In this document: in pieces, positions 17,564-34,963 of the stretch
How the letters are laid out: each line of letters starts with the position of its first letter
Position numbering within the stretch: the first letter of the stretch is position 1
Assembly (NCBI GenBank): GCA_023383035.1
Contig: JAHDYE010000004.1
Span: 1-41,719, forward strand
Reading direction: 5' to 3'
Length of the DNA: 41,719 bases
Source of the DNA: Burkholderiaceae bacterium
Lineage (GTDB): Bacteria; Pseudomonadota; Gammaproteobacteria; Burkholderiales; Burkholderiaceae_E
The notes under the pieces: model-generated
The model's database searches: none
Seen by the model: the letters and a program-made list of their open reading frames with translations, nothing else
What the model was told of the DNA's origin: nothing
Translations under genes and position numbers: made by a program

Positions 17564-18448
17564 ATGTACGCACAGTTCGGACTCGAGATTCCACAAAGCC
17601 TCGGCGAGGCGCTCGAGATGCTCGCGCCGTCGGGAAATGGAAGCCGGGTACCCATCGCAGGCGGCACGAACGTCCTCGTCGACCTGCGCGCGCGCACTAG
17701 TGCGCCCGACACGCTGGTCAGCGTGGCGCGGCTCGCGGACCTGCGCGGGGTGCGGGAAGCGAACGGCCAGGTGACGATGGGCGGATGCACCACGGTTTCC
17801 GACATCCTGCGAAACCCGGAAATGCGGCGCCTGGGTTCGGCGCTCGTCGATGCGGCAGACGTGTTCGCAGGGCAGATGGTCCGGAACACCGCGACCGTTG
17901 CCGGGAACATCTGCTGCGGGTCGCCGGCAGCGGATCTCGTGCCTGCGCTGCTCGTGCTCGATGCCGCCGTGACCCTCGAGAGCAGCAGAAGCCGGCGCCA
18001 GGTGCCGCTGGCCGAATACTTCACCGGATACAAGCAGTCGGTCCGTGCCCCGGACGAACTGCTGACGCAGATCTGCTGGCCGACGCCGGGCACCGCATCG
18101 GCCAGCCGGTTCTACAAGCTTGCCCGCCGCAAGGGCGATGCGATCACGGTGGTCGGCGTCGCCGTGTCCCTCCAGGTCGAGGATGGAAGATGCCGGAGCG
18201 CGAGGATCGCGCTCGGCGCGGTCGCGCCCTTCGTGAAGCGCGCGACCATCGCCGAGTCGATGCTCGAAGGCAAGGCGCTGACGCCCGATTCGATCGCGAG
18301 CGCGTCCCGCCAGGCCGCGGCGGAGTCGAGCCCGATCGACGACGTGCGCGCCTCGGGCGAGTACCGTCGCAACCAGGTGTTCGTGCTGGTGCAGCGGCTG
18401 GTTGCGCAGACCTGGGCTCAACTTTCATCCGGAATCCGCGAATCATGA
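17564..18448 (+). CDS. Molybdenum hydroxylase 1, FAD-binding medium subunit (CoxM/XdhB-like)
   Basis: PIAGGTNVLVDLRA, ATVAGNICCGSPAADLVPALLVLDA. Confidence 0.92.
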   Translation: MYAQFGLEIPQSLGEALEMLAPSGNGSRVPIAGGTNVLVDLRARTSAPDTLVSVARLADLRGVREANGQVTMGGCTTVSDILRNPEMRRLGSALVDAADVFAGQMVRNTATVAGNICCGSPAADLVPALLVLDAAVTLESSRSRRQVPLAEYFTGYKQSVRAPDELLTQICWPTPGTASASRFYKLARRKGDAITVVGVAVSLQVEDGRCRSARIALGAVAPFVKRATIAESMLEGKALTPDSIASASRQAAAESSPIDDVRASGEYRRNQVFVLVQRLVAQTWAQLSSGIRES

Positions 18449-19098
18449 GCAAGAAGATGACGAAACCCGAGCCGGTCGGAGAGCGTTCGTCCGGAGCGGG
18501 GCTGGCGCTGAAGGATGTCCGGGCGCCCGCGCCGTCGCTGCGTGCGCAGCCGCCCATCGGCCTGCCCGAAGTCGGGACGCGCGCCGCGACGCGGCCGAAG
18601 AAGGAGGTCGCGACGAAATTGCTGACCCTCCTGATCAATGGTGTCGCGCATCGGGTCGCGGTGGCGGCGAACGAGACGCTGCTCGAGACGTTGCGCGGCC
18701 GCGGGAACGTCGAGGTCAAGTGCGGCTGCGAGAAGGGAGACTGCGGCGCCTGCGCGGTACTGCTGGACGGCCAGGCGGTCGACAGCTGTCTGACGCTCAC
18801 GTGGACCGTGGAGGAGCGCGCGATCACGACCATCGCCGGACTCGGTACCGTCGACGCGCCGCATCCGCTGCAGACCGCGTTTGCCGAGACCGGAGCGGCC
18901 CAGTGCGGCTATTGCATTCCCGGGATGATCATTGCCGCGCAATCAATGCTGACCAACGACACCGACAGGCCGACGCTGGACGACATCCGCGTCGGCTTGA
19001 GCGGAAACCTGTGTCGCTGCACCGGCTACGCCAAGATCTTCGACGCCGTCGAAAAGGCGGCCGCGGCGATGTGCAGCGGAGGGGCGGATCATGAGTGA
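18445..19098 (+). CDS. Molybdenum hydroxylase 1, [2Fe-2S] small subunit (CoxS-like) with N-terminal extension
   Basis: KCGCEKGDCGACAVLLDG, CGYCIPGMIIA, LSGNLCRCTGYAKI; start ATG overlaps the FAD-subunit stop. Confidence 0.92.
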   Translation: MSKKMTKPEPVGERSSGAGLALKDVRAPAPSLRAQPPIGLPEVGTRAATRPKKEVATKLLTLLINGVAHRVAVAANETLLETLRGRGNVEVKCGCEKGDCGACAVLLDGQAVDSCLTLTWTVEERAITTIAGLGTVDAPHPLQTAFAETGAAQCGYCIPGMIIAAQSMLTNDTDRPTLDDIRVGLSGNLCRCTGYAKIFDAVEKAAAAMCSGGADHE

Positions 19099-21436
19099 GG
19101 CACGCGGCACCGTGGCGGACACATCGGCCGGCGACGGCATGGCCTTCCGGCAGATCGGCAAGTCGGTGGTGCGTACCGACGTCCCGGGCAAGGTCCACGG
19201 AAAGACGCCGTATGCCGGCGACTACACCATGACGGACATGCTGCACGCGAAGGTGCTGAGGAGTCCGTTGCCGAGCGCGCGCCTGACCAGGCTGGATGTG
19301 AGCAGGGCGCGAGCGCTTCCCGGTGTCGCGGCGGTGCTCACCTACGGCGATCTGTCGAAAGGTACCGTGGCGACCGACATCCCCGGACAGACCGGATTCA
19401 AGCGTCTGAACACCGACCAGCAGATCCTGGTCGACCGGATCGTGCGCTACCAGGGCGAGCCGATCGCGCTGGTGGCGGCCGAGACGCTTTCGATCGCCCA
19501 GGAGGCGATGGACCTCATCGAATTCGATCTGGAGCCGCTCGAAGGCGTCTACGACCCTTTCGCTGCGCTCGAGCCTGACGCGCCGAAAGTGTTCGGCGCC
19601 GACAACATCGTCGCGAGATACAAGATCCGCAAGGGCGACATCGAGGCCGGCTTCGCGGCGGCCGACGTCGTGGTCGAGAACACGTTCCGGACGCAGTACA
19701 TCGAGCACGCTTTCCTGGAACCGGAAGTCGGACTCGGCTGGGTGGACGACCAAGGCGTGATCAACATCCGCTCGTCTACGCAATGCGTGGAACATTACCG
19801 CTATGTCGCCGAGGCGATGGGGCTGCCGCACAGCAAGGTTCGCATTCGCGGAGCGCTGGTCGGGGGAGGGTTCGGCGGCAAGAGCGACGTGACCGTCGAG
19901 CTGTACATCGCATTGCTGACGAAGGCAACCGGCCGCCCCGTGCGCCTTTGCTATACGCGCGAGGATTCGCTCTACGGGCACGGCAAGCGCCATCCGTTCA
20001 CGATCACCCACAGGACCGGATTCGCGCGGGATGGAAGGATCACCGCCTCGAAGATCGACATCACGTCCGAATCGGGGCCGTATGCATTCATGTCGCCGTA
20101 CGTCCTGATGTACGCCACCGAGGCAGGCCCCGGGCCGTACCGTGTCGACAACGTGCATGTCGACTCCCGCTCGGTGGCCACCAACAACATGTACACCAGC
20201 GCGTTCCGCGGGTTCGGCGCGACCCAGGCCTGCATCGCCTACGAGCAGCAGATGGACGAGGCCGCCAGGGTCCTCGGCATCGATCGCCTGGAGCTGAGGC
20301 GCCGCAACTTCCTCAAGACGGGCGATCCGATCGCGACGGGTTTCCAGGTGAGGAGCGCCGTCTGGACCGACCAGTGCATGGAAAAGGCATGGGAGGCGCT
20401 GGGTGAGCGCGCTCCCGACCAGGGACCGGTGAGGATCGGCCGGGGGGTGGCCGCGTACCAGCAGGGGTACGGGCGCCTCATCTGGCTGCACGATACGGCC
20501 GAGGGATGGGTCGGCATCGAAACCGACGGCACGGTGGTCGTCCGTTCCGGAATCACCGACATCGGTGCCGGACAGGGATCGGCACTCGCCCAGATCGCCA
20601 GCGAGCTGCTGGGCGTGGACATGAAGAACATCACTGTCTACAACAGCGATTCATCGACCACTCCGCTGGCGGGAACTTCGACGGCGACCCGGGGTCTGTA
20701 CATGAGCGGCAGTGCCGTGCGCCTCGCGGCCGGTGCCGTACGGAACCGGTTGCTGGAGCGTGCGGGCAGGCAGTTCGGAGTCGAGGCCGGCCGGGTCGAC
20801 ATCGCCGATTCGCGGGTCTTCGTGACCGGCGATGCCGCGCGCTCGATGGATCTCAGGGAACTCGTGAGAATCTGCGCTTCGGAGGGCATTCACCGTTCGG
20901 AGCTCGCGATCTTCCGTGCGCCGTTCGGCGACTGGCTGGATCCGGAAACCGGGCAGGGGCAGGTGCATCCCGACTACACGTACGGCGCTCATGCGGTCGA
21001 GGTTGCGGTCGACACCGAAACCGGCGAGGTGACCATACTCAAGAGCATCGGCGCCCATGACGTGGGTCGGGCCGTCAACCGGGCAGCGGTCGAGGGGCAG
21101 ATCGAGGGCGGAGTCGCGCAGGGGCACGGCTACGCGCTGAGCGAGGAGCTCATCTACAAGGACGGCAAGCTGAAGACGCCATCGCTGAGCGAGTATCTGT
21201 GCCCGACGGCGATGGACACGTGCCGTATCCAGGCGATCGTGCTGGAATCGGGTACCGGACTCGGTCCCTTCGGCGCGAAGGGAATCGGCGAGCCCGGACA
21301 TACCCCGGCATGCGCCGCCGTGGCCAACGCGGTAGCCGATGCAATCGGTGTACGCGTGTTCGATCTGCCGATCACGCCCGAGAAGGTGGTGAAGGCCCTG
21401 GCTGCCGCGGGACGGCAGCCGGGATCGGCCGCCTGA
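19091..21436 (+). CDS. Molybdenum hydroxylase 1, molybdopterin-binding large subunit (xanthine dehydrogenase family)
   Basis: GGGFGGKSDV, SAFRGFGATQ, GPFGAKGIGEPGHTPACAAVANAV. Confidence 0.95.
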   Translation: MSEARGTVADTSAGDGMAFRQIGKSVVRTDVPGKVHGKTPYAGDYTMTDMLHAKVLRSPLPSARLTRLDVSRARALPGVAAVLTYGDLSKGTVATDIPGQTGFKRLNTDQQILVDRIVRYQGEPIALVAAETLSIAQEAMDLIEFDLEPLEGVYDPFAALEPDAPKVFGADNIVARYKIRKGDIEAGFAAADVVVENTFRTQYIEHAFLEPEVGLGWVDDQGVINIRSSTQCVEHYRYVAEAMGLPHSKVRIRGALVGGGFGGKSDVTVELYIALLTKATGRPVRLCYTREDSLYGHGKRHPFTITHRTGFARDGRITASKIDITSESGPYAFMSPYVLMYATEAGPGPYRVDNVHVDSRSVATNNMYTSAFRGFGATQACIAYEQQMDEAARVLGIDRLELRRRNFLKTGDPIATGFQVRSAVWTDQCMEKAWEALGERAPDQGPVRIGRGVAAYQQGYGRLIWLHDTAEGWVGIETDGTVVVRSGITDIGAGQGSALAQIASELLGVDMKNITVYNSDSSTTPLAGTSTATRGLYMSGSAVRLAAGAVRNRLLERAGRQFGVEAGRVDIADSRVFVTGDAARSMDLRELVRICASEGIHRSELAIFRAPFGDWLDPETGQGQVHPDYTYGAHAVEVAVDTETGEVTILKSIGAHDVGRAVNRAAVEGQIEGGVAQGHGYALSEELIYKDGKLKTPSLSEYLCPTAMDTCRIQAIVLESGTGLGPFGAKGIGEPGHTPACAAVANAVADAIGVRVFDLPITPEKVVKALAAAGRQPGSAA

Positions 21437-21492
21437 CGCGCTGAGTCCTGGGCGCAGGCGAGCGCTTCGGCGGGCGGGCAGGCCGGTCGTCG

Positions 21493-22269
21493 TCAGCCCT
21501 TCCAGCCGAGCGCCATCGAGATGTCGCGCGCTTCCTTCGCGGCGAGTGTCCCGAGTTCCTTCAGGAACTGGGGAGCAGCGCGCGCCGTCGGCAGGGAGAC
21601 GCCCAGCGCAGCGACGACGAGGCCGCTGCTGTCGAAGATCGGAGCGGCGACGCCGGCAACATCGGCCCTGTATTCGCCGCGATTGATTGCGTAGCCGACG
21701 CTGCGGACGCCTGCGAGATGCGCCATCAACTCGTTTCTGTTCGTGATCGTCGAGTTCGTGAACCGGCGGCGTCTGCCGCGCAGCATCCGTTCCAGGTCGG
21801 CCTCGGGCAGGAACGCGAGCATCGCCTTCCCGTTCGCGGTGCAATGCAGGGGATGCGGCAGCCCGAGCTGTATGTTCGGGCGCAGCGCATGGTTCGAATC
21901 GAGCTTGTCGAGGAATACCATCTCGCCGCTGCCGGCCAGCGCGGTGATGTGCACGGTTTCGTCCGTGGTGCTCGCCAGCCGTTCGAGAAACGGTCGCGCG
22001 ATGTCGACGATCCGGGATCCCCGGATCGCCCTCTGACCAAGCTCCCACAGCTTGACGCCGAGCAGGTATCGAGCCGTTTCCGGATCACGGGTGAGGAACC
22101 CCTGTTCGGTCAGCGTGGTCACCAGGCGCGAAACCGAGCCCTTCGGCAGTTCCAGACGGTTGCTGAGGTCGGTGATGCCGATCGGACCGTCCGCCTGTGA
22201 AACCGCAATCAGCACGTCGAGGCCGCGCTCCAGTGACTGTACCGTCGTACTTCGCTCGATTCTCTCCAT
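21493..22269 (-). CDS. IclR-family transcriptional regulator 1
   Basis: wHTH TVQSLERGLDVLIAVSQADGPIGITDLSNRLELPKGSVSRLV and IclR effector domain (HCTANGKAMLAFLP). Confidence 0.95.
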   Translation of the reverse strand: MERIERSTTVQSLERGLDVLIAVSQADGPIGITDLSNRLELPKGSVSRLVTTLTEQGFLTRDPETARYLLGVKLWELGQRAIRGSRIVDIARPFLERLASTTDETVHITALAGSGEMVFLDKLDSNHALRPNIQLGLPHPLHCTANGKAMLAFLPEADLERMLRGRRRRFTNSTITNRNELMAHLAGVRSVGYAINRGEYRADVAGVAAPIFDSSGLVVAALGVSLPTARAAPQFLKELGTLAAKEARDISMALGWKG

Positions 22270-22660
22270 ACGGCATGCTCCGCGACGCGATGGGCGCCAG
22301 TGAAGCGCCCGCGACGCGACCCTCGCGCCGCCCGCTCCCGCCCTCCTGGCAAGCCACGAGGATAGCCGATCGCAGGCCCCGCATCGGGCGCGATGCGCGA
22401 ACGGCCTGGGCATGCGAACCGCCGCGCGCGTACGCGCCATGAGCACGACGGCGTACTTCGTGAATCGGCCGCTGGGCGTCGCGCAGCTCGGCGACGTGTA
22501 CGACCGCTCGGGGATCAGGCGGCCGACTTCCGATGCGGCGCATGCGGCGCAACCGGTTCGCAACGGCTTCGTCATCAAGAGACCGGTGCCCTGAGCGTGG
22601 TGAACGATCGGCGCTGCCGTCGGGGGATGGTCGCCGTACGTGCATCTTGATATCGATGTA

Positions 22661-22689
22661 TTGACTTGAGCGGTGCATTGCGCTAAAAA
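22661..22689 (+). promoter_or_regulatory. Candidate sigma70 promoter (TTGACT-N17-TAAAAA) upstream of IclR 2
   Basis: TTGACT 22661-22666, 17-nt spacer, TAAAAA 22684-22689; IclR 2 starts at 22751. Confidence 0.55.
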
Positions 22690-22710
22690 GCACTCATGTT
22701 CGCAATGACG

Positions 22711-22747: not shown

Positions 22748-22750
22748 GGA

Positions 22751-23539
22751 ATGACCGAGGAAAGACGCGTCGGCACGGTGCAGTCGCTCGAGCACGGGCT
22801 CAAGATCCTCGTGGCCGTCTCTGCGGCCGACCGGGGGCTCGGAATCACGGATCTCAGCCGGCATCTCGGCCTTGCAAAGGGTTCGATCTCCCGTCTGGTC
22901 TCGACGCTGGCGCGCTCCTCGTTTCTCGTCCGCGATCCGAGCACCGCCAAGTACCGGCTCAGCACCAGGGTCTGGGAGCTCGGCAACAAGGCGGTGTCGA
23001 GGCTCGATCTGCGCGACATCGCGAGGCCGGTGATGGAGGAGCTGAACCGGGCCACCGGCGAAACCACGCACATCACGGTGCTCACCGAAGACGGGCAGAT
23101 GATCTTCCTCGACAAGGTCGATTCGACCAGGGCGATTCGCCCGAACGTCCAGCTCGGTGCGCCGCATCCGCCGTACTGCTCGGCGAACGGGAAGGCGATG
23201 CTCGCGCATCAGCCCGAAGTGCGCCTGACCAGGCTGCTCAACGGAAGCCTGCGCCAGTACACGCCCACGACGATCACGAGAAAGCACGACCTGCTCGCGC
23301 AGCTCGAGAACGTCAGGAAGCAGGGCTACGCAGTGAACAACGGGGAGTACCGCGAAGACGTGTCGGGAATCGCGGCTCCGGTGTTCGACCACACCGGTCG
23401 GGTCGTGGCGGCACTCGGTGTGTCGGTGCCGTCGAGCAGGATGAACGCCCGCCTGGTCAGGGATCTCGCCCCTCAGCTCAAGAAGGGCGCCCGGACCCTC
23501 TCGCTGGCGCTTGGCCAGCACCGCGACGACGCCTCCTGA
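22751..23539 (+). CDS. IclR-family transcriptional regulator 2
   Basis: TVQSLEHGLKILVAVSAADRGLGITDLSRHLGLAKGSISRLVSTL; YCSANGKAMLAHQPE. Confidence 0.95.
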   Translation: MTEERRVGTVQSLEHGLKILVAVSAADRGLGITDLSRHLGLAKGSISRLVSTLARSSFLVRDPSTAKYRLSTRVWELGNKAVSRLDLRDIARPVMEELNRATGETTHITVLTEDGQMIFLDKVDSTRAIRPNVQLGAPHPPYCSANGKAMLAHQPEVRLTRLLNGSLRQYTPTTITRKHDLLAQLENVRKQGYAVNNGEYREDVSGIAAPVFDHTGRVVAALGVSVPSSRMNARLVRDLAPQLKKGARTLSLALGQHRDDAS

Positions 23540-23593: not shown

Positions 23594-25981
23594 ATGTCAG
23601 CGCGGCAATACAAGGCGATCGGAAGCAAGGCGCACCGCAAGGACGGACTGGCCAAGGTCACGGGTACCGAGCAGTACGCGCCCGACGTGTCGGTGCCGAG
23701 GGCGTGGTTCGGCCGCGTGCTGCGCAGCCCCCATGCCCACGCGAGGATCGTCTCGGTGGACACCAGCGGTGCGGAGGCGATGGGAGCCGTGTGCCTGACC
23801 TTCGCCGACGTGCCGAAGATCAAGTACAACGAACGCATCGTCAGCACGCCGCCCCACCTGTATCGGGACCGCTATGTGCTTGCCGACAAGGCGCGCCACG
23901 TCGGCGAGGCCATCGCGGCCGTGGCGGCACCCACCGAAGCGCTGGCCGAGAAGGCGCTGAGGGCCATAAAGGTCGAGTACGAGGTCCTGCCGGCGATCAT
24001 GTCGGCCGACGATGCGCTGAAGGCCGGAGCGCCGTCGGTCCACGAAACGGTTCGTCTGCAGGACAAGGAAATCCCGATCGAGCGCAACGTCGCGGTTTCC
24101 CGACTCGTCGAGGTGGGCGATGTCGAGAAGGGGTTCTCCGAGTCGGACGCGATCATCGAGCGCGAGTTCTCGACCTCGCCGATGTACCACGCGCAGATGG
24201 AAACCAAGTCGGTCGTATGCAAGCCCGCGGCCGACGGTTCGATCACGGTGTGGGCCAGCACGCAGTCGATCCACAACACGCGCCAGCTGCTCGCCGAGAT
24301 CTACGGATTGCCGCTGCACAAGGTCAACGTCAAGCGCGTCGCGCTCGGCGGATCGTTCGGATCGAGCATACAGATGAACTCCGTGACGCCGATCTGCGTC
24401 GGGCTCGCGATCAAGTCGCGGCGGCCCGTGAAGATCGTGACGACGCGCGAAGAGGACATGTACGACCACTGTCGCTATCAGACGCACATCAGGCTCAAGC
24501 TGGGCTACCGGAAGGACGGCAGCCTGGTCGCCGGGCACATGACGGCGACGGTGGAGATCGGGGCGCACAACATCCAGGCGTATCCGTTCCTCGGCGTGAT
24601 CGCCGGCTTCTGGGTCTCGCTCTACAAGTTGCCGAGCATGAAGTACGAAGGCAGGGCGATCTACACCAATCGAACACCTTCGTGCGCGATGCAGGGGTTT
24701 GGCGCGCCCCAGGCCACCTTCGTCACCGAAGTGATGATGGATGAGATCGCCGAGCTGCTCGAACGGGATCCGGTCGACTACAAGCTCGAACAATATCGCG
24801 GGCTCGGCGATACGTTCTGGGGACACGGCCCGACGGTGAAGTCGGTGATCCTCAGCGACGGTGTGCCGGAGCTGCTGAAGATCGGCGCCGAGAAGATCGG
24901 CTGGGCCGGCCGGCCCCGGCCGGGAAGCCAGCACGGCCGCTTGCGTCGCGGCATCGGAATGGCGCGTGGCTTTCACTGCAGCGGAGTGGGCCACCCGAAG
25001 GCCACCGGCGCGGAGATGATCGACTACTCGGGCGCGATCGTGAAGGTCAACGAGGACGGATCGATCGACTATATCCAGTCGCTGATGGATCACGGCGGCG
25101 GAACCAACGAAGCGATCGCGCGCATCGTCGCCGAAGAGATCGGCGTGCCGCTCTCCAAGGTGGGCATTTCGACGGTCGATACCGGCACTACCGTCTACGA
25201 CGTGACCACGCATGCCACGCGCGGGGTCTTCGCCGGCGGCGCGGCGGCGCACAAGGCCGCCAGGACGGTGAAGGCGAAGATCCTGGAGTACGCCGGCCGC
25301 GTGCTGGACGTGATGAAGGAATCGCTCGTCATCGAGCCTTCGGAAGAGCTCGGACAGGGCGTCATCTATTGCCCGAGCTACCCGGAAAGGCGCATGACGC
25401 TCGGAGAGCTGGCGAAGTACCTCCAGATCAACAGCTGGGGAACGATCGCCGCGGTCGAGAGCCTGAGGCAGGTCACGGCCCCGCCGGCCTACGTGACCTA
25501 CTTCGTCGAGGTCGAGGTCGATACGCAAACCGGTCATGTCAGGACGCTGGGCGCAGCGCTCGGCAGCGACTGCGGGACGGTGATCAACCCCGGGCTGGCG
25601 GCCGGGCAACTCGTGGGCGGCTTGTCCAAGGGAGCAGGCTTCGCGCTCGTCGAGGACCACCAGTGGAATCCGAAGACCGGCGAGCTGACGAGCAAGGGCT
25701 TCTGGGTGGACTGCAAGACGCCATCGATCCTGGAGTCACCGGTGCTCGAGCGCCTGCACACCGATTTCGCGCATACGTACGAGCCCACCGGGCCGTTCGG
25801 CGCCAAGGGAGTCGGCGAGGCCGCCCTGAATCCTGCCATCGCCGCCTACGCGAACGCGATCCACAACGCGCTCGGGATCCGCTTCAGGGAGGTTCCGATC
25901 ACTCCCGAGAAGATCCTCTCGGCGCTCGCCGCAGCGAACGAGGCGCCGAAGGTCGCCGAAGCGGAGCTGGTCGCGAAATGA
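23594..25981 (+). CDS. Molybdenum hydroxylase 2, molybdopterin-binding large subunit (xanthine dehydrogenase family, atypical motifs)
   Basis: DGLAKVTGTEQYAPDV, LGGSFGSSIQMNS, CAMQGFGAPQATF, GPFGAKGVGEAALNPAIAAYANAI. Confidence 0.94.
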   Translation: MSARQYKAIGSKAHRKDGLAKVTGTEQYAPDVSVPRAWFGRVLRSPHAHARIVSVDTSGAEAMGAVCLTFADVPKIKYNERIVSTPPHLYRDRYVLADKARHVGEAIAAVAAPTEALAEKALRAIKVEYEVLPAIMSADDALKAGAPSVHETVRLQDKEIPIERNVAVSRLVEVGDVEKGFSESDAIIEREFSTSPMYHAQMETKSVVCKPAADGSITVWASTQSIHNTRQLLAEIYGLPLHKVNVKRVALGGSFGSSIQMNSVTPICVGLAIKSRRPVKIVTTREEDMYDHCRYQTHIRLKLGYRKDGSLVAGHMTATVEIGAHNIQAYPFLGVIAGFWVSLYKLPSMKYEGRAIYTNRTPSCAMQGFGAPQATFVTEVMMDEIAELLERDPVDYKLEQYRGLGDTFWGHGPTVKSVILSDGVPELLKIGAEKIGWAGRPRPGSQHGRLRRGIGMARGFHCSGVGHPKATGAEMIDYSGAIVKVNEDGSIDYIQSLMDHGGGTNEAIARIVAEEIGVPLSKVGISTVDTGTTVYDVTTHATRGVFAGGAAAHKAARTVKAKILEYAGRVLDVMKESLVIEPSEELGQGVIYCPSYPERRMTLGELAKYLQINSWGTIAAVESLRQVTAPPAYVTYFVEVEVDTQTGHVRTLGAALGSDCGTVINPGLAAGQLVGGLSKGAGFALVEDHQWNPKTGELTSKGFWVDCKTPSILESPVLERLHTDFAHTYEPTGPFGAKGVGEAALNPAIAAYANAIHNALGIRFREVPITPEKILSALAAANEAPKVAEAELVAK

Positions 25982-26931
25982 GCGCCGGCGGATCCGGCGG
26001 AAACGAAACAACCGTGAGTCCTGCACGCATGTACACCGCTACCAACACCAGAATCCTCGTGCCGGAGTTCGACTACGTGCGACCGTCCAGCCTGCCGGTG
26101 GCGCTTGCGGAGCTGGCGCAGACGGGCAGGCAGAACCGGCCGATCCTGGGCGGCACCGATCTGCTGGTCCAGATGAAGATGGAGCGCAGGACGCCCACCT
26201 GCCTGGTCGACCTGAACGATATCGCCGAGCTGCGCGGCATCGCCATGACGCAGAAGGGCCTGAGCATCGGCGCTGCCACCACGATCCGCCAGCTGGCGGG
26301 CGCACAGGCCGCGCGCGACCACTATCGCGCATTGGTCGAGGCGTGCAACGCGTTCAGCACGGTCCCGATCATGGTGATGGCGACGATCGGCGGAAATCTC
26401 TGCAACGCTTCGCCGGCTGCCGACACGGCGCCGGCCCTCCTGGTGTTCGATGCTGCCGTCGAGCTGGTATCGCAAGCCGGCAGACGAACCCTTCCGCTGC
26501 ACGAGTTTCTCGTCGGCCCCGGCGAAACCGCCCTGCGTGACGGCGAGATCATGGTGTCGGTCCGGCTCGGCAGACCGGCGCAAGGCACGGGAAGCGCCTT
26601 CATCAAGATCGCCCGCGTGGCGGCGGACATCTCCAAGGCCTCGGCGGCCGTGAGCCTGGTGCGCGACGGTGACAGGGTCGCCGACTGCCGGATCGCGCTC
26701 GGCGCGGTTGCGCCGACGGCGGTGCGCATCGAGCGGGCCGAAGCCTGCCTCGCCGGAAAACGGTTCGACGCGGAAGTTGCCGAAGAGGTCGCGGAGATCG
26801 TCGCGCAGGACATCAGGCCGATCACGGATGTGCGCGCGACGAAAGAGTACAGACGGACCGCGTCGCGGGCGATCGCGATGGACGCACTGAAGACCGCCTG
26901 GAAACGTGCGGGAGAAGGGAGAGTGGCATGA
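25978..26931 (+). CDS. Molybdenum hydroxylase 2, FAD-binding medium subunit
   Basis: PILGGTDLLVQMKM, ATIGGNLCNASPAADTAPALLVFDA; alternative start ATG at 26029. Confidence 0.92.
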   Translation: MSAGGSGGNETTVSPARMYTATNTRILVPEFDYVRPSSLPVALAELAQTGRQNRPILGGTDLLVQMKMERRTPTCLVDLNDIAELRGIAMTQKGLSIGAATTIRQLAGAQAARDHYRALVEACNAFSTVPIMVMATIGGNLCNASPAADTAPALLVFDAAVELVSQAGRRTLPLHEFLVGPGETALRDGEIMVSVRLGRPAQGTGSAFIKIARVAADISKASAAVSLVRDGDRVADCRIALGAVAPTAVRIERAEACLAGKRFDAEVAEEVAEIVAQDIRPITDVRATKEYRRTASRAIAMDALKTAWKRAGEGRVA

Positions 26932-27422
26932 AGCGGCGAGTGGTGAGGTTCACGTTGAACGGCGAGCAGCGGGAGATCGCGGTGTATCCGAACGATCTGC
27001 TGCTGAACGTGCTGCGCGAGCAGGAGAGCCTGACGGGCACGAAGTACGGCTGCGGGATCGGCGAGTGCGGTGCATGCGCGGTGCATGTCGACGGGCAACC
27101 GGTGCTCTCGTGCCTGAAGCTGGCGGTCGCGGTCGAGGGGTGCGACGTGGTAACCATCGAGGGCCTCGCCCGGGACGGCGAACTCGACGTCGTGCAGGAA
27201 GCATTTCTCGATCATTCGGCAGTGCAGTGCGGCTTCTGCACGCCGGGGATGGTCATGATGGGGCGGGCGCTGCTCGACGAGAAGTCGGCGCCCACCGAGG
27301 ACGAGGTACGCGAGCACATGCGCGGCCAGTTGTGCCGCTGTACCGGCTATGCCGGCATCGTCCGCGCGGTGATCGACGCCGGTCAGCGGGAAGCCGGCGT
27401 CGAAGCGGGGGTCGCGCAATGA
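26928..27422 (+). CDS. Molybdenum hydroxylase 2, [2Fe-2S] small subunit
   Basis: YGCGIGECGACAVHVDG, CGFCTPGMVMM, RGQLCRCTGYAGI. Confidence 0.95.
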   Translation: MKRRVVRFTLNGEQREIAVYPNDLLLNVLREQESLTGTKYGCGIGECGACAVHVDGQPVLSCLKLAVAVEGCDVVTIEGLARDGELDVVQEAFLDHSAVQCGFCTPGMVMMGRALLDEKSAPTEDEVREHMRGQLCRCTGYAGIVRAVIDAGQREAGVEAGVAQ

Positions 27423-28801
27423 CGACCCGCGAGATGTGCGATATCCAGATCCGGGGCGGCGTCCTGGTGAGCAGCCAGGAGATGAAGCTGGCCGACGTGT
27501 TCATCAAGGACGGCATCGTGGACAGCATCGAGCGTCCGGACAGCGGCCGGCACGCCCGCAAGGTGATCGACGCGAAGGGCAAGTATGTCCTTCCCGGCAT
27601 CGTCGAGGCGCATCTGCATCCCGTGTACGCCGACCGGCTGGACAGCCTGTCCAGGTCGGCGGTCTACGGCGGGATCACGACGCTGATTCCCTACATCGGC
27701 GCAGTGAAGGCCTGGGGCGTCGAGGGCAATCTCTGGGATGCGGTGAACTACTTCATCGACGAGGGCGCGCGCGATTCCGTCATCGACTTCGGCCTGCACT
27801 GCAGTCTCGTGAGCGGCGATCTGGCCGAACTGGAAAGCCTCATCCCGAAGATCTGCCAGCGCGGGGTGCGTTCCTTCAAGGGCTTCATGGCCTACAGGAA
27901 ACGCGGAATGTTCCTCGGCGACAGCGACATCCTGAGGATCCTGTCCGCGCTGAAGGACAACGACGGCCTGTTCTGCGTGCACGCCGAGAACGGCGATCTG
28001 TGCGACTTCATCGAGGACGGCTTCGTCGCCCAGGGCAAGACCGGGCCCGAGTATTACGGTCCTTCGCGTCCGAACATCGCGGAGGCCGAGGCGGTCTTCC
28101 GGATCCTGACCTTCGCCAAGTCGGTCGATTGCCCGATCTACATCGTGCACGTGAGCACGAAGGAAGCGCTCGACGTGATCGACATGTTCCGGAAGTGGGC
28201 GACTTCGCCCATCTTCGTCGAGACGTGCACGCACTACCTCACGCTGACGAACGAGGAGATGCTCAAGCTCGGCTCTCTGGCCAAGGTCAGCCCGCCGCTG
28301 CGCGAGGCGAACGACATCGATGCGCTGTGGAAGGCGATCGCGATGGGCAAGATCGACGTGATCGGCGCCGATACGGGCGGTCACATGATCAAGAGCAAGG
28401 AGCCGCGATTCGGCAACGTCTTCGCGGCGCCGGGCGGTCTTCCCGGCCAGGAGACGATGTTCACGGTGACCTACGACGAAGGCCACAACCGGCGCGCCAT
28501 CAGCCTGTGCCGGCTGGTGGAGATGATGGCCGAGAAGCCGGCGAAGATCTTCGGACTGTACCCGCGCAAGGGCGTGCTGCAGAAGGGCGCCGACGCGGAT
28601 GTCCTGATCTTCGATCCGACCCGGGAACACGTCATCAACGCAACGAACCAGCATGTCAGGACCGACTACACCATGTACGAGAACCGGCGCGTTCTCGGAG
28701 CCCCGGAACTGGTGATGCAGCGGGGCGAAATACTTCTCGAGAACGGCGAGCTCAAGGCGAGCAAGGGCCGCGCGAAGTTTCTCGAAGCAACTCCCCATTA
28801 A
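27419..28801 (+). CDS. Hydantoinase/dihydropyrimidinase/dihydroorotase-type cyclic amidohydrolase
   Basis: VEAHLHP (HxH), FKGFMAY (carboxy-Lys candidate), CVHAEN, YIVHVSTKEAL, GADTGGH. Confidence 0.9.
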   Translation: MTTREMCDIQIRGGVLVSSQEMKLADVFIKDGIVDSIERPDSGRHARKVIDAKGKYVLPGIVEAHLHPVYADRLDSLSRSAVYGGITTLIPYIGAVKAWGVEGNLWDAVNYFIDEGARDSVIDFGLHCSLVSGDLAELESLIPKICQRGVRSFKGFMAYRKRGMFLGDSDILRILSALKDNDGLFCVHAENGDLCDFIEDGFVAQGKTGPEYYGPSRPNIAEAEAVFRILTFAKSVDCPIYIVHVSTKEALDVIDMFRKWATSPIFVETCTHYLTLTNEEMLKLGSLAKVSPPLREANDIDALWKAIAMGKIDVIGADTGGHMIKSKEPRFGNVFAAPGGLPGQETMFTVTYDEGHNRRAISLCRLVEMMAEKPAKIFGLYPRKGVLQKGADADVLIFDPTREHVINATNQHVRTDYTMYENRRVLGAPELVMQRGEILLENGELKASKGRAKFLEATPH

Positions 28802-28822: not shown

Positions 28823-29692
28823 GTGTCGGAACGAATCATCAAGGTGGCGGCGCTTCAGGAGAAGGCGATGCCGCGCACCAGCGTCCAGGAGAAGCTCGGG
28901 CGCACGCTCGAGTTGATCGAGCAGGCGTCGAAGGCGGGCGCCCAGATCATCCTGGGGGGCGAGCTTTCCACCACGGACTACGACCGGTGCTACGGCAAGA
29001 AGGACGTCGGCCTGTTCGCCGAAGCGGAGACCATTCCGGGGCCGTGCACGAACGCCGTGGGCGAGCTCACGAGGACGTACAAGAACTACGTCATCTTCCC
29101 GATGTTCGAGAAAGCCGCCCCGGGCCTGTACTACAACTCGGCGGCGACCATCGGCCCCGACGGTACCGTCGTCGGCACCTACCGCAAGACGCAGGTCGCG
29201 GGCGTCCAGGCGCTCGAGAAGATGTACTTCCGCGCCGGCCAGGATTTCAGGATCCACGAAACGGAGTTCTTTCCCAACGCGAAGTTCGGCACCATCATCT
29301 GCCACGACCGGCGCTACCCGGAGACATCGAGGATCCTCGCGATGCTCGGTGCCGAGATGATGTTCTGCCCGACCGCGGCGCCGGGCTATGCGCACGGGGT
29401 GCACTGGCACATCGTCAACACCGCCAGGGCGGTCGACAACGGCATGTTCTGCGTGTACTCGAACCGTGTCGGCCCGGAGGGCAACAACAACTATTTCGGC
29501 GAGAGCATGATCGTGAACCCGCACGGACAGGTCATCGCGAACGGCGGCGACGGGGTCAACACGTTCATCATGGCCGAATGCGATCTCGCCATCGTCGACG
29601 AGGCGCGCATCGCGGTTCCCACCCTGCGCGACCTGCGCACGGACTTCTGGATGAAGTACTACAACAAGCCGGCCTACGACGTCCTGATCTGA
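28823..29692 (+). CDS. Carbon-nitrogen hydrolase (nitrilase superfamily), N-carbamoyl-D-amino-acid amidohydrolase-like
   Basis: Catalytic Glu (GGELS), Lys (YRKTQV), Cys (TIICHDRRYPETSRI); GTG start. Confidence 0.88.
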   Translation: MSERIIKVAALQEKAMPRTSVQEKLGRTLELIEQASKAGAQIILGGELSTTDYDRCYGKKDVGLFAEAETIPGPCTNAVGELTRTYKNYVIFPMFEKAAPGLYYNSAATIGPDGTVVGTYRKTQVAGVQALEKMYFRAGQDFRIHETEFFPNAKFGTIICHDRRYPETSRILAMLGAEMMFCPTAAPGYAHGVHWHIVNTARAVDNGMFCVYSNRVGPEGNNNYFGESMIVNPHGQVIANGGDGVNTFIMAECDLAIVDEARIAVPTLRDLRTDFWMKYYNKPAYDVLI

Positions 29693-29802: not shown

Positions 29803-31056
29803 ATGCGCTATTCCGCATTCGAACTGGTCAGGCAGGCGCTGAAGAAGAACCGGGACTGGCCCCGCGCGTGGAAGCACGCCGAGCCCAGGAGCTTCTATGA
29901 CGTGATCATCGTCGGCGGCGGCGGGCACGGCCTGGCTACGGCCTACTATCTCGCGAGGAATCACGGCATCACCAACGTGGCGGTGCTGGAGAGAGGCTAC
30001 ATCGGCGGGGGAAACACGGGCCGCAATACGACCATCATCCGGTCGAACTACATGATCGACGGCAATACCGACTTCTACGAGAAGTCGATGCAGCTGTGGG
30101 AAGGCCTCAGCCAGGATCTGAACTTCAACGTCATGTTCTCGCAGCGCGGCCAGCTGAATCTGTGCCATTCGCCGGCGCAGATGGATGCCGCGGCGCGACG
30201 CGGAAACATCATGCGGATGAACGGCATCGACGCCGAGCTGCTGAGCCGCGAGGAGGTGCAGCGGATGGTGCCGGTTCTGGACTACTCCGACGAGGCCAGG
30301 TTCCCGATCGTCGGCGCACTGTACCAGCCGCGCGCAGGCACTGCGCGGCACGATGCGGTGACCTGGGGCTACGCGCGCGCCGCCAGCAGCCTCGGCGTCG
30401 ACATCGTGCAGGGTTGCGAGGTGAAGGGCTTCCTGCGTGACCGGGGAAAGATCGTCGGCGTCGAGAGCAACCGGGGGCCGATCCGGGCGAAGAAGGTGGG
30501 GCTGACCGTGGCCGGCCACACCGGTCAGCTGGCGGCGATGGCGGGTCTGCGACTGCCGATGGAGTCGCACGTCCTGCAGGCGTTCGTCACGGAGGCCATC
30601 AAGCCGGTGCTCGATACCGTCGTCGCCTTCGGTGCCGCGCATTTCTACATTTCCCAATCCGACCACGGCGGACTGGTGATGGGCGGCGACCTGGACGGGT
30701 ACAACTCCTATGGCCAACGCGGCGATCTCCCCGTGATGGAGGAGACGATGGCCGACGCGAAGTCGCTCATGCCGCTCGTATCGCGCCTGCGCATCGTGCG
30801 CCAATGGGCCGGCGTGATGGACATGACCATGGACGGCAGCCCGATCATCTGCAAGTCGCCGGTCGACGGTCTGTATCTCAATGGAGGGTGGTGCTACGGG
30901 GGCTTCAAGGCCACGCCCGCTTCGGGATGGTGCTTCGCGCACACGATCGCGAACGACCAGCCTCACCGGTTCAACTCGCAATTCACGCTGGACCGATTCG
31001 AGCGTGGCCGCCAGATCGACGAAAAAGGCGTGGGGCCGACCCCATGGGCTCACTGA
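29803..31056 (+). CDS. soxB: Sarcosine oxidase subunit beta
   Basis: DVIIVGGGGHGLATAYYLARNHGITNVAVLERGYIGGGNTGRNTTIIRSNY; followed by D, A and G subunits. Confidence 0.96.
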   Translation: MRYSAFELVRQALKKNRDWPRAWKHAEPRSFYDVIIVGGGGHGLATAYYLARNHGITNVAVLERGYIGGGNTGRNTTIIRSNYMIDGNTDFYEKSMQLWEGLSQDLNFNVMFSQRGQLNLCHSPAQMDAAARRGNIMRMNGIDAELLSREEVQRMVPVLDYSDEARFPIVGALYQPRAGTARHDAVTWGYARAASSLGVDIVQGCEVKGFLRDRGKIVGVESNRGPIRAKKVGLTVAGHTGQLAAMAGLRLPMESHVLQAFVTEAIKPVLDTVVAFGAAHFYISQSDHGGLVMGGDLDGYNSYGQRGDLPVMEETMADAKSLMPLVSRLRIVRQWAGVMDMTMDGSPIICKSPVDGLYLNGGWCYGGFKATPASGWCFAHTIANDQPHRFNSQFTLDRFERGRQIDEKGVGPTPWAH

Positions 31057-31066
31057 GGGAAGTGCC

Positions 31067-31363
31067 GTGCTGAGAATCGACTGCCCCTATTGCGGCTGCC
31101 GCGACTACACCGAGTTCACCTATGGCGGCGCAGCGGAACGGGAGTTTCCCGATCTCGGGAATACCGACATCGAGGCGTGGGTCGACTTCGTGTTCATTCG
31201 CGACAACCCGAAGGGGGAGCACGCCGAGTACTGGCAGCACCAGAACGGCTGCCGCCAATGGCTGCGGGTGGTGCGCGACACCGTTGCCCACGAAGTCAGA
31301 TCGGTGACGCCGGCGCGCGCGGGGTCGAGCGTCGGTGAAGTTGCCGGGGTGAAGACAGCGTGA
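31067..31363 (+). CDS. soxD: Sarcosine oxidase subunit delta
   Basis: CPYCGCRDYTEFTYGG...EYWQHQNGCRQWLRVVRDT; GTG start at 31067. Confidence 0.95.
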   Translation: MLRIDCPYCGCRDYTEFTYGGAAEREFPDLGNTDIEAWVDFVFIRDNPKGEHAEYWQHQNGCRQWLRVVRDTVAHEVRSVTPARAGSSVGEVAGVKTA

Positions 31364-34362
31364 ACAAGCAGGCTTATCGACTGAGCGTCGGCGGCCGTAT
31401 CGACCGGGCCCGTCCGCTGTCCTTCGTGTTCGATGGCCGGACCTACACCGGCTTTTCCGGCGACACGCTTGCCTCGGCGCTGCTGGCCAACGGCGTGCAC
31501 CTGGTCGGTCGCAGCATGAAGTATCACCGTCCGCGCGGCATCTTCTCGGCCGGCGTCGAGGAGCCCAACGCGCTGGTCACGCTGCGTCGGGGCGAGCGCC
31601 GCGAGCCCAATGTCCCGGCGACGACGGTCGACCTGTACGACGGGCTGTGGGCCGAGAGCCAGAACCGGTGGCCCTCGCTCGATTTCGACGTGCTCAGGGC
31701 GGTCGACCGCTTTTCGTCGGTGTTCAGCGCAGGCTTCTATTACAAGACGTTCATGGGCCCGACCCGGAAGGCGTGGCGCTTCTACGAGGATCTCATCCGC
31801 AAGACCGCGGGCCTCGGCGAGGCGCCGACCGGGCCCGATCCCGACCGTTACGAGAAAGCCCATGGATTCTGCGATGTGCTCGTCGTCGGCGCGGGCCCTG
31901 CCGGGCTGACGGCGGCGGTCGCGGCGGGAAGGGCGGGCGCGCGCGTGCTTCTGGTCGACGACGCAAGCCAGCCGGGCGGGTCGCTGCTCTCCCACGCGAG
32001 CAGGGATCGCGCGGATTCCTGGCTCGCGCAGACGCTGAAGGCGGTCGAGGAGCTGCCGAATGTCCGCGTGATGCCGCGGACGACGGTGTTCGGCGCCTAC
32101 GACAACATGGTTTTCGGTCTGCTCGAGCGCGTCGGCGATCATCTCGCCGTGCCGGACCCTCACGATGTCCGCCAACGCCTGTGGGTGGTCCGGGCGCGGC
32201 AGGCGCTGTACGCGACCGGCATGATCGAGCGGCCTCTCGTGTTCGGCAACAACGATCTCCCGGGCGTCATGCTGGCGTCGGCCGCGCGGACCTACGCCAA
32301 CCGATATGCGGTGCTGGCCGGTCGCAAGGTGGTCGTGTTCACCAACAACGACAGCGCCTACGAAGCGGCGTTCGACCTTGCGGCGGCCGGCGCGAGCGTC
32401 GCGATGGTCGACCCCAGGCGCGAGGTTCCCGAGGCGCTGAGGCGCGACATCCAGCGGGCCGGCATCGAACTGCATCCGGCGTCCGCGATAGCCGGAGCCA
32501 GTGGCAGGAAGCGGGTGCATGGCGTCGACCTCGTCGACTTCGACGGCAGCGAGCGGACGACGAGTACGGTGAGGGCGCGTCTCGCCTGCGACCTGGTGCT
32601 CGTGTCGGGGGGCTGGACGCCGACGCTGCAGTTGCTGGGCCAGCGAGGCGCGAAACCGGCGTTCGACCAGGCGCGCGGAATGTTCGTTGCCCAACGGGTT
32701 CCGTCCGGCTATCACCTTGCCGGCGGCGCTGCCGGAGAGCGCTCGCTGGCGCGCGGCGTGGCGGGTGCGCACGAAGCCGGCAATGCGGCGGCCCGCGCCT
32801 GCGGATTCACCGCAGGGTCCGGCGACGGCCCGCTTCTGGATGGACTCCCGGTCGAGCGGTCATCGAACGCCGACCTGCCACTGACCGTGATCGCCGATCC
32901 ATCGAACCGGGCGTACCGCAAGAAATTCGTCGATCTCCAGCACGACGTCTGCGTCAGCGACATCGCGCAGGCGCTGGGCGAAGGCTACGAATCGGTCGAG
33001 CACCTGAAGCGGTACACGACGCTCGGGATGGCGACCGACCAGGGCAAGACCTCCAACGTCAACGCGCTGGCCATCGCCGCCGGGATTCTTCGGCGTCCGA
33101 TCGATGCCGTGGGAACGACCACCTTCAGGCCGCCGTTCAGGCCGATTCCGATCGGCGCGCTCGCCGGTTCCGAATTCGGGCGTCACTTCAAGCCGACGCG
33201 TCGTTCGCCGATGCACGACCTTCATGCGCGCGATGGTGCGGTCTTCACCGCAACCGGTCTGTGGCTGAGACCCTGGTACTACCCGGCAGCCGGCGAGCCG
33301 ATAGGCATTGCAAGCGTCCGGGAGGCAGGTCGTGTCCGGGACGGTGTCGGCATGGTGGATATCTCGAGCCTCGGGAAGATCGACGTACAGGGACTGGATT
33401 GCGCCGAGTTCCTGAACCGTGTCTACGTGAACGGCTGGGACACCCTCGAGATCGGCAAGGCAAGGTACGGCGTCATGTTGCGGCCCGACGGAATCGCGCT
33501 CGACGACGGAACGACGTCGCGGATCTCGCAGAGCCATTACTTCATGACCACGACCACTGTCGGTGCGGCCAAGGTCATGACTTTCCTGGAGTATCTGCTG
33601 CAGACCGCCTGGCCCGATCTTCGCGTGCATGTGACGTCGGTCACCAGCCAGTGGGCGGGTATCGCCGTTGCAGGACCGCGCAGCCGCGACGTGCTGGCGC
33701 GGCTGGTCGGCGACGTCGATTTCGACGACGCGTCGTTTCCCTTCATGGGCGTGCGTCACGGCCACCTCGGCGAGGCGCCGGTGCGGCTGTTGCGGATCAG
33801 CTTCTCGGGCGAGCGGGCGTATGAGGTGTACACGCCAGCGGGCTACGGCGAGGCCGTGTGGGAAGCGATCCGCGCAGCAGGCAAGGGTGACGGGATGGTG
33901 GTGTACGGCACCGAAGCGTTGAGCATCCTGCGCATCGAGAAAGGCCATGTGGCCGGCGCCGAGATCGAAGGCAGGACAACGCTGGCCGATCTGGGTCTGG
34001 GGCGTATGGCCAGCAGGAAGAAGCCCTTCGTAGGAAGCACGCTGGCGCGGCGCGAAGGGCTCTCCGATGCCGGGCGTCCCCAACTCGTCGGTCTCGAACC
34101 GTGCCAGCAGGGCGTCGCGCTCAGGGCCGGATCGATCCTGTGCGAGCCCGGCGAGCATCGGGGGCATGGAATCGGGTTCGTGTCCTCGGTGACCTTTTCA
34201 CCCGCGCTGGGCAGGAACATCGCGATCGGCTTCGTATCGGGGGGCATGGCGCGCGAAGGCAAGACCGTCGATGCGGTCTTTCCGCTGCGGAACGAAGTCG
34301 TGCCGGTTCGCATCGCATCGCCGCATTTCGTCGACCCCGAAGGAGAACGTCTGCATGCTTGA
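31360..34362 (+). CDS. soxA: Sarcosine oxidase subunit alpha
   Basis: 1000 aa; N-terminal ferredoxin-like plus FAD domain (DVLVVGAGPAGLTAAVAAGRAGARVLLVDD), C-terminal GcvT-like domain. Confidence 0.97.
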   Translation: MNKQAYRLSVGGRIDRARPLSFVFDGRTYTGFSGDTLASALLANGVHLVGRSMKYHRPRGIFSAGVEEPNALVTLRRGERREPNVPATTVDLYDGLWAESQNRWPSLDFDVLRAVDRFSSVFSAGFYYKTFMGPTRKAWRFYEDLIRKTAGLGEAPTGPDPDRYEKAHGFCDVLVVGAGPAGLTAAVAAGRAGARVLLVDDASQPGGSLLSHASRDRADSWLAQTLKAVEELPNVRVMPRTTVFGAYDNMVFGLLERVGDHLAVPDPHDVRQRLWVVRARQALYATGMIERPLVFGNNDLPGVMLASAARTYANRYAVLAGRKVVVFTNNDSAYEAAFDLAAAGASVAMVDPRREVPEALRRDIQRAGIELHPASAIAGASGRKRVHGVDLVDFDGSERTTSTVRARLACDLVLVSGGWTPTLQLLGQRGAKPAFDQARGMFVAQRVPSGYHLAGGAAGERSLARGVAGAHEAGNAAARACGFTAGSGDGPLLDGLPVERSSNADLPLTVIADPSNRAYRKKFVDLQHDVCVSDIAQALGEGYESVEHLKRYTTLGMATDQGKTSNVNALAIAAGILRRPIDAVGTTTFRPPFRPIPIGALAGSEFGRHFKPTRRSPMHDLHARDGAVFTATGLWLRPWYYPAAGEPIGIASVREAGRVRDGVGMVDISSLGKIDVQGLDCAEFLNRVYVNGWDTLEIGKARYGVMLRPDGIALDDGTTSRISQSHYFMTTTTVGAAKVMTFLEYLLQTAWPDLRVHVTSVTSQWAGIAVAGPRSRDVLARLVGDVDFDDASFPFMGVRHGHLGEAPVRLLRISFSGERAYEVYTPAGYGEAVWEAIRAAGKGDGMVVYGTEALSILRIEKGHVAGAEIEGRTTLADLGLGRMASRKKPFVGSTLARREGLSDAGRPQLVGLEPCQQGVALRAGSILCEPGEHRGHGIGFVSSVTFSPALGRNIAIGFVSGGMAREGKTVDAVFPLRNEVVPVRIASPHFVDPEGERLHA

Positions 34363-34963
34363 GCCGCGCTCAGCGCTGGCTGCGGTCTACCGGCCCGGCC
34401 AGCTCGGCGTCATTCACCGGCCTGCCGTAGTCGCCATATCGGAGCGACGTGGTCGGGCGTTGGTCCAGTTGTCGGGTTGGCCGGGCAGCTTCGAATCCGT
34501 CTGCGACCGGCTCGAAAGACGTCTCGACATGCCGGTGCCGCGGGATTGTCGCGGCGCGACGGAATGCGCCGATCTGTCGATCTTCAGAGTCGGGCCTGAG
34601 CGACTGTGGCTGGCCGCGCGCGCGCACGACGCGCGTCTGCAGGGAATCGATGCGGCGTCGTTCGGCGAAGACGCGGTTGTCACCGAACTCGGACACAGCC
34701 GGACCGTGCTGCGGATCACCGGGTCCTCGGCGCGAGCCCTGCTCAACCGTGGATTGCCGGTGGATCTCGACGACGCCGCGTTTCCCGTCGGAGCGTTCGT
34801 CCAGAGCGCCATCCATCACGTTCCGGTGCTCGTGTACAGGAACGGCGCCGCCGGAGACTGTGCGCTCGACGCGTACGTGCCGCGTGAATACTCCGTGACG
34901 TTCTGGGAGTGGCTGACCGAACATGCGGCGTCGCTCGGTGGCCTGGTCGGGGAGCCGGAATGA
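34355..34963 (+). CDS. soxG: Sarcosine oxidase subunit gamma
   Basis: About 202 aa after soxA with ATG overlap; FRVGPERLWLAAR and the conserved position in soxBDAG. Confidence 0.9.
   Translation: MLEPRSALAAVYRPGQLGVIHRPAVVAISERRGRALVQLSGWPGSFESVCDRLERRLDMPVPRDCRGATECADLSIFRVGPERLWLAARAHDARLQGIDAASFGEDAVVTELGHSRTVLRITGSSARALLNRGLPVDLDDAAFPVGAFVQSAIHHVPVLVYRNGAAGDCALDAYVPREYSVTFWEWLTEHAASLGGLVGEPE

Follow-up and report, generated by a model that had tools for sequence, protein, structure and literature searches.

The stretch of DNA analyzed here (hereafter, the window; 41,719 nucleotides) is an entire contig (JAHDYE010000004.1, assembly GCA_023383035.1) of a metagenome-assembled genome (MAG) of a Burkholderiaceae bacterium, 4.1 Mb in size and 83% complete. 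Protein families were called by Pfam and NCBIfam scans and genes by a codon-usage script, with approximate start sites. Two complete molybdenum hydroxylases (gene orders M-S-L and L-M-S), a hydantoinase-family amidohydrolase (Hyd), a nitrilase-family amidase (Nit) and soxBDAG are all found between positions 17564 and 34963. The scans bear out this inventory, which had been drawn up in an initial annotation. The genes of this interval are the following:

17564..18448, plus strand: M1, FAD subunit of Mo hydroxylase 1 (Pfam FAD_binding_5, CO_deh_flav_C)
18445..19098, plus strand: S1, 2Fe-2S subunit of Mo hydroxylase 1 (frame with CGCEKGDCGAC and QCGYC/CRC motifs; 71-79% orthologs)
19091..21436, plus strand: L1, large Mo subunit of Mo hydroxylase 1 (nearest solved relative, nicotinate dehydrogenase 3hrd)
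21493..~22269, minus strand: IclR-family regulator (Pfam IclR_C, HTH_IclR)
22751..23539, plus strand: IclR-family regulator (Pfam; 59-67% relatives in clusters A, B, C and D, see below)
23594..25981, plus strand: L2, large Mo subunit of Mo hydroxylase 2 (Pfam; 70-73% orthologs in clusters D, E and F)
~26029..26931, plus strand: M2, FAD subunit of Mo hydroxylase 2 (family scan and gene call)
26928..27422, plus strand: S2, 2Fe-2S subunit of Mo hydroxylase 2 (Pfam Fer2, Fer2_2)
27419..28801, plus strand: Hyd, hydantoinase-type cyclic amidohydrolase (TIGR02033, 366.6 bits; 1nfg, 272.4 bits)
28823..29692, plus strand: Nit, candidate carbamoylase of the nitrilase superfamily (Pfam CN_hydrolase)
29803..31056, plus strand: SoxB, sarcosine-oxidase-type beta subunit (TIGR01373, 691.9 bits, cut-off 529; 1vrq, 489 bits)
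~31070..31363, plus strand: SoxD (Pfam SoxD; TIGR01374, 114.2 bits, cut-off 116.5)
31360..34362, plus strand: SoxA, folate-binding alpha subunit (TIGR01372, 1290.5 bits, cut-off 1164)
34400..34963, plus strand: SoxG, divergent, start uncertain (TIGR01375, 64.9 bits, cut-off 143.95)

The interval had been described as one co-directional run. That run is broken by the two back-to-back IclR genes, on the minus and the plus strand respectively, which separate the hydroxylase 1 block from the hydroxylase 2 block; therefore the genes form at least two operons, and a single operon covering 17564-34963 is ruled out. The extent formerly proposed does contain all the enzymes named, but linked genes reach beyond it, to approximately 3193-39595. 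Upstream of the hydroxylases lie a minus-strand group encoding PrpD2, a TRAP transporter and a COG0523 GTPase (8496-3193) and a plus-strand group encoding PrpD1, PurU, a Liv transporter and a thiamine pyrophosphate (TPP)-dependent decarboxylase (8997-17345).

When Nit was used as the sole bait against approximately 85,000 species genomes, six loci were obtained, with identities of 74-80% and all of them in MAGs. They are referred to as clusters A (L006), B (L007), C (L008), D (L009), E (L010) and F (L011), and that of the window as W. For A-F, adjacent contig pieces were joined, genes called and proteins grouped into families (f4 includes PrpD2, and f7 the COG0523 GTPase). Their hosts belong to the Burkholderiales/Betaproteobacteria or the Rhodobacteraceae, or are unplaced Proteobacteria. 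The hyd and nit genes are adjacent in all seven clusters, soxBDAG comes directly after them in five (W, A, B, E and F), and every one of the seven contigs carries a Mo hydroxylase; the sox genes are hence linked to this set in relatives also, against the possibility, set down beforehand, that they never would be. In A, B, C, E and F, the next genes encode an MmgE/PrpD protein and a COG0523 GTPase. As the linkage recurs on six unrelated contigs that were found with Nit alone, it is not attributable to chance. The pairwise identities of Hyd correlate with those of SoxB (r = 0.98), SoxA (0.89), Nit (0.86) and IclR (0.86), and to a lesser degree those of PrpD2 and CobW. Samples of 399 genomes of the order, 369 of the class, 398 of the phylum and 246 plus 250 further genomes yielded no carriers other than the genomes of the known clusters, from which it follows that the module is rare; a plasmid search with Nit gave no match. 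The gene set is known so far only from uncultured bacteria, and its occurrence in several lineages would point to horizontal transfer.

The separate operons also have a palindrome in common, present both in the divergent PrpD promoter region and in the gap before M1. Its extended form, GTTTCGCNNNNGCGWAC, occurs as two exact copies in the window, both intergenic. The candidate sites in the window are:

8689..8705, minus strand: candidate IclR-type operator GTTTCGCTATAGCGAAC, in the divergent prpD2/prpD1 promoter region
17442..17458, plus strand: candidate operator GTTTCGCAGTAGCGAAC, before M1-S1-L1
22718..22734, plus strand: weak candidate operator GTTTCTCTCTCGCGTAC, with one mismatch, before the plus-strand IclR gene

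Exact GTTTCGCNNNNGCGWAC sites are also located before L2 in D, before the IclR gene in B and, in C, both before the aldehyde dehydrogenase-decarboxylase genes and before the IclR-carbamoylase-Hyd-Nit genes; in A, a site with one mismatch precedes the IclR gene. Altogether, the seven contigs contain six exact sites, and six Markov shuffles contain none; as the window sites served to derive the pattern, which was widened after B had been inspected, the matches in the window are not independent. There are three exact sites in the 4.1-Mb genome of the window, two of them in the window itself, and the single exact site of the D genome lies in the cluster. With one mismatch allowed, the short form is no commoner than chance, and the same holds for the long form at two mismatches. 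The best reading of these data is that the linked operons would constitute one catabolic regulon. Outside the clusters, exact sites at G000:C293, G766:C267 and G765:C14 lie near unrelated genes and were taken as chance occurrences. Another exact copy in the C genome (L062:3901-3917; G766:C37) precedes an operon for a Liv transporter and a further Mo hydroxylase, which also includes genes judged by eye to be rhodanese-like and metallo-beta-lactamase-fold-like. Upstream of the IclR gene of A, B and C (e.g., L008, approximately 6606-6642) the palindrome is doubled, a weaker second copy being placed 20 bases off, in the manner of tandem operators.

Each hydroxylase has its FAD, two 2Fe-2S and Mo domains distributed over three subunits and possesses the catalytic Glu, as is characteristic of the xanthine dehydrogenase family of Mo hydroxylases. 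L2 is closest to the general xanthine dehydrogenase family. L1 and L2 retain the catalytic Glu (GIGEP in L1), as well as the Glu and Arg lining the pocket of xanthine oxidase. As the curated scores of both proteins are far under every equivalog cut-off, their substrates cannot be read from the scores, and are not that of any curated member. The cluster contigs of W, D and E carry the M1-S1-L1 type, which genome F has on a separate contig, and those of W, D, E and F the L2-M2-S2 type; those of A, B and C carry a third type. Orthologs of L1 are 79-80% identical in D, E and F and 65% elsewhere in the A and C genomes, some of them on other contigs.

Several features of these hydroxylases were observed in addition. 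Near the molybdenum site, L2 (23594-25981) reads GGSFGSS, versus GGGFGGK in other family members, and the same sequence is found in D, E and F. The third type (L-S-M; e.g., L027, L057) is followed by genes for a sulfite-oxidase-like molybdoprotein and two EtfB/EtfA-like proteins and is preceded by a DUF169-like gene, all named by eye. In the C genome, the L1 ortholog (L030/L031, G766:C238) lies near genes resembling, by eye, the ATP-dependent hydantoinase genes hyuA/hyuB, and near those for a class III aminotransferase, an aldehyde dehydrogenase and a Liv transporter; this neighborhood is possibly a sister pathway.

Hyd scores just under the cut-off of the D-hydantoinase model TIGR02033 (366.6 of 393.25 bits), and its nearest solved relative is the D-hydantoinase 1nfg. 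The motifs of the binuclear metal site (AHLHP, FKGF, HAENGD, HVST/HISA and [AS]DT) are intact in all seven Hyd proteins and align with those of solved hydantoinases. All seven also contain a basic stretch, FMAY[RK][KR]RGM, after the catalytic Tyr, where 1nfg has YRGMNM; such a loop would suit an acidic ring substituent. Scores against the allantoinase models are 265.8 bits or lower. Hyd does not belong by score to ErtD, the hydantoin-5-propionate amidohydrolase of ergothioneine degradation, a family named by NCBIfam (238.7 bits of a cut-off of 650 for NF058539, and 202.9 of 600 for NF058538).

Nit belongs to the nitrilase superfamily, with the catalytic Glu-Lys-Cys residues invariant in all seven proteins. 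The initial annotation had called it D-carbamoylase-like. This is correct as regards the C-x-D-R-R motif of D-carbamoylases, whose Arg pair binds the carboxylate and which is present as CHDRR in all seven proteins, but not as regards the overall sequence: the best matches in the PDB are Nit2 and N-carbamoylputrescine amidase (95-87 bits), versus 65 bits for D-carbamoylase. Eukaryotic-type proteins named beta-ureidopropionases match Nit weakly (approximately 50 bits). Clusters A (L006:1340-2284) and C (L008) encode a second nitrilase between the IclR gene and Hyd. That of A is, by sequence, an N-carbamoyl-D-amino acid hydrolase (366.7 bits to 8i99), and the C copy aligns with it; these extra D-carbamoylases would independently point to carbamoyl alpha-amino acids as intermediates.

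SoxB, SoxD, SoxA and SoxG are encoded together, SoxD and SoxG being under their curated cut-offs. SoxG scores less than half of its cut-off, the other subunits being near or above theirs. The closest solved relatives of SoxB are heterotetrameric sarcosine oxidases, from which it differs near the active-site lysine and at the pocket lid, where, with respect to the solved enzyme, YLWDES, for example, is replaced by YMIDGN and GWGTGGFKGTPG by GWCYGGFKATPA; this comparison includes one solved sequence and four paralogs, some of them partial, and is not used as proof. The genomes of A-F each hold further SoxA matches, 45-57% identical to the cluster SoxA; that of the window has the cluster copy only. 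As the A-F genomes hold other, distinct SoxA proteins, the cluster Sox, where present, is an extra dedicated copy.

The genes flanking this set in the window are the following:

3193..4251, minus strand: COG0523 (CobW-type) GTPase, probable metallochaperone (Pfam cobW and CobW_C)
4294..7181, minus strand: TRAP transporter DctM, DctQ, DctP (Pfam DctM, DctQ, DctP)
7183..8496, minus strand: PrpD2, MmgE/PrpD protein (Pfam; phmmer, 7bra, 178.9 bits; iminodisuccinate (IDS) epimerase 2hp3, 166.3 bits)
8997..10325, plus strand: PrpD1, second MmgE/PrpD protein (Pfam; relatives in B, F and E, that of E cut by the contig end)
10337..11200, plus strand: PurU, formyltetrahydrofolate deformylase, C1-folate disposal (TIGR00655, 352.9 bits, cut-off 286)
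11238..15736, plus strand: branched-chain-type ABC transporter LivK-G-F-H-M (Pfam, gene calls)
15738..17345, plus strand: TPP-dependent 2-oxo acid decarboxylase, 5-guanidino-2-oxopentanoate decarboxylase subfamily (NF005712, 623 bits, cut-off 500)
35058..39595, plus strand, after soxG: polyamine-type ABC transporter (PotA, PotD-like, two permeases; Pfam/NCBIfam)

The COG0523 GTPase is present in all seven clusters, with identities between clusters of 56-69% (the F gene is cut by the contig end). The closest relatives of PrpD2 are IRG1 of B. subtilis and IDS-epimerase, which act on di- and tricarboxylic acids. PrpD2 has orthologs in six clusters, located in the relatives after soxG or nit; the PrpD of D, which also has a CobW-type gene, is more divergent (44-47%). 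The decarboxylases belong to two unrelated families, AruI-like in W and E and sulfopyruvate-decarboxylase-like in A and C; in E, the ortholog of the W enzyme (61% identical) adjoins L1. Clusters A, C and E also encode an aldehyde dehydrogenase, and cluster F encodes a HisC-like aminotransferase.

For a carbamoyl intermediate to be formed, the ring must contain an N-C-N unit, and two oxidations of imidazole would lead to hydantoin. We consider that the best explanation for the locus, with a probability of roughly 0.55, is a single regulon for the breakdown of a heteroaromatic N-C-N ring with an N-methyl group, most probably an imidazole; we infer the substrate and every reaction step from the families, the linkage, the shared promoter element and the catalytic residues kept. 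The core route of ring oxidation, ring opening, decarbamoylation and demethylation is, on these grounds, probable. The two Mo hydroxylases would oxygenate both ring carbons beside nitrogen to give N1-methylhydantoin, which Hyd would open to an N-carbamoyl-N-methyl amino acid. Nit would split the latter, with formation of CO2 and ammonia, to the N-methyl amino acid, which the dedicated SoxBDAG would then demethylate, yielding the amino acid and 5,10-methylene-tetrahydrofolate. PurU would recycle folate, and the COG0523 GTPase may load metal into Hyd. The initial annotation had ordered the chemistry in the same way (ring oxidation, hydantoinase, carbamoylase, Sox), and this order fits the family assignments.

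Within the core route, we tentatively suggest a carboxylated imidazole as the better-fitting substrate. A carboxylated side chain is proposed because decarboxylases of two types, aldehyde dehydrogenases and a HisC-like aminotransferase share the context, which would correspond to the conversion of an amino acid to keto acid, aldehyde and acid, because PrpD2 is nearest to IRG1/IDS-epimerase, and because of the basic Hyd loop after the catalytic Tyr. The aminotransferase, the 2-oxo acid decarboxylase and the aldehyde dehydrogenase could shorten an amino acid of the N(pi)-methylhistidine type to methylimidazole acetate; such an amino acid would fit because opening of the hydantoin turns the methylated nitrogen into the alpha nitrogen, as Sox needs. 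The substrate of Sox would be N-methylaspartate, and PrpD2 might handle or epimerize an aspartate-type intermediate. Spelled out in full, this amounts to a Mo-dependent breakdown of N(pi)-methylhistidine-type compounds (anserine, ovothiol-derived) via 1-methylhydantoin-5-acetate and N-carbamoyl-N-methylaspartate, in which SoxBDAG would be specific for N-methylaspartate and an epimerase of the PrpD family would act on the resulting aspartate-type compound; this proposal should be regarded as speculative.

Several observations weigh against the regulon for an N-methylated ring or against details of it. The sox genes are absent from C and D, so that demethylation is not universal and Sox is an add-on to the core ring-opening module. 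The second hydroxylase of A, B and C is of a different type, the palindrome is absent from the contigs of E and F, and Nit is nearer overall to Nit2/N-carbamoylputrescine amidase than to D-carbamoylase. With respect to the side chain, no decarboxylase or aldehyde dehydrogenase was found in the contigs of B, D and F, and no aminotransferase or aldehyde dehydrogenase gene in the window; the decarboxylation genes, missing as they are from some contigs, could instead act downstream. Moreover, MmgE/PrpD is a broad family, frequent in catabolic clusters.

The lack of sox in two clusters and the location of some L1 orthologs on other contigs are also what would be expected if the modules were mere neighbors, with the hydroxylases, the hydantoinase pair and Sox acting on separate substrates and Sox being fed from elsewhere. 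We consider this unlikely, since the linkage is conserved over several proteobacterial lineages, divergence is correlated, the separate operons have an operator-like site in common, and the further SoxA copies in these genomes differ from that of the cluster. Quite unlikely is also the substrate of the initial annotation, bare N-methylimidazole, which would be converted via 1-methylhydantoin, N-carbamoylsarcosine and sarcosine to glycine. It makes use of the same enzyme order and agrees with the proximity of SoxB to heterotetrameric sarcosine oxidases, and an anaerobe is known to degrade N-methylhydantoin via N-carbamoylsarcosine and sarcosine (PMC4417704). However, it leaves PrpD1/PrpD2, the 2-oxo acid decarboxylases, the aldehyde dehydrogenases and the aminotransferase without a role, and it accounts neither for the changes in the SoxB pocket lid nor for the basic substrate loop of Hyd; the exact substrate first proposed is thus probably wrong.

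A pyrimidine-type ring, with Hyd as dihydropyrimidinase, Nit as beta-ureidopropionase and the hydroxylases acting on an oxidized pyrimidine, would be consistent with the score of Hyd near the dihydropyrimidinase/D-hydantoinase cut-off and with the beta-ureidopropionases among the weaker matches of Nit. It is nevertheless improbable: these matches are weak, Nit keeps the RR pair of D-carbamoylases, a D-carbamoylase for alpha-amino acids is additionally encoded in A and C, and the scanned window genes include no dihydropyrimidine dehydrogenase. A methylated purine route of the caffeine/theophylline type, with C-8 hydroxylation and an allantoinase-like step, has in its favor that the hydroxylases belong to the xanthine dehydrogenase family, and is very improbable, as Hyd scores far higher as hydantoinase than as allantoinase and no uricase-like, HIU hydrolase or OHCU decarboxylase gene occurs among the scanned window genes.

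If the regulon for an N-methylated ring is as proposed, imidazole rings would be fed oxidatively into the hydantoin-carbamoyl-amino acid route, Mo hydroxylases replacing the deaminases and oxygenases of known routes, and the N-demethylation step would return one-carbon units to folate. A function would thereby be provided for a rare, mobile-looking gene set of uncultured Proteobacteria, and a route suggested for methylated histidine compounds. It would also give an IDS-epimerase-like PrpD a physiological role and a distinct Sox clade a proposed class of substrates. A literature search found no published account of the gene combination or of the whole route; most subscription journals were outside the search and earlier work is possible.

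Among known systems, the creatinine/N-methylhydantoin route is functionally alike, in that a hydantoin is opened to a carbamoyl N-methyl amino acid, which is decarbamoylated and demethylated (PMC4417704). The mimicry of this route put forward in the initial annotation holds to that extent, but the enzyme types differ. The ATP-dependent N-methylhydantoinase is typical of aerobes (PMC4417704), whereas the scanned window genes include neither a two-subunit N-methylhydantoin amidohydrolase of this HyuA/HyuB type nor an isochorismatase-type N-carbamoylsarcosine amidohydrolase. The cluster has instead an ATP-independent metal amidohydrolase and, as candidate carbamoylase, a CN_hydrolase protein of the nitrilase family, its proposed entry by Mo hydroxylases is oxidative, and PrpD, CobW-type and decarboxylase genes are linked to it. 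As both characteristic enzymes are absent and the entry is apparently oxidative, the cluster is not a member of that route.

The heterotetrameric sarcosine oxidases resemble the cluster enzyme in having all four subunits, with SoxA and SoxB above their cut-offs, and differ from it in SoxG, far under its cut-off in the cluster, in the lysine and lid changes of SoxB and in the different extra copies of the relatives. With the pair of D-hydantoinase and D-carbamoylase, the cluster shares the Hyd sequence, the metal motifs and, in A and C, a D-carbamoylase; Nit is approximately 28% identical to that D-carbamoylase, and the known pair comes without Mo hydroxylase or Sox. The nicotinate/xanthine dehydrogenase family includes the nearest solved relative of L1 and has the same catalytic Glu, although L1 and L2 are both distant from its equivalogs by score. 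Finally, Hyd is far from ErtD by score, but the reaction would be alike, as in ergothioneine degradation an imidazole-derived hydantoin with a carboxylated side chain is opened to a carbamoyl amino acid.

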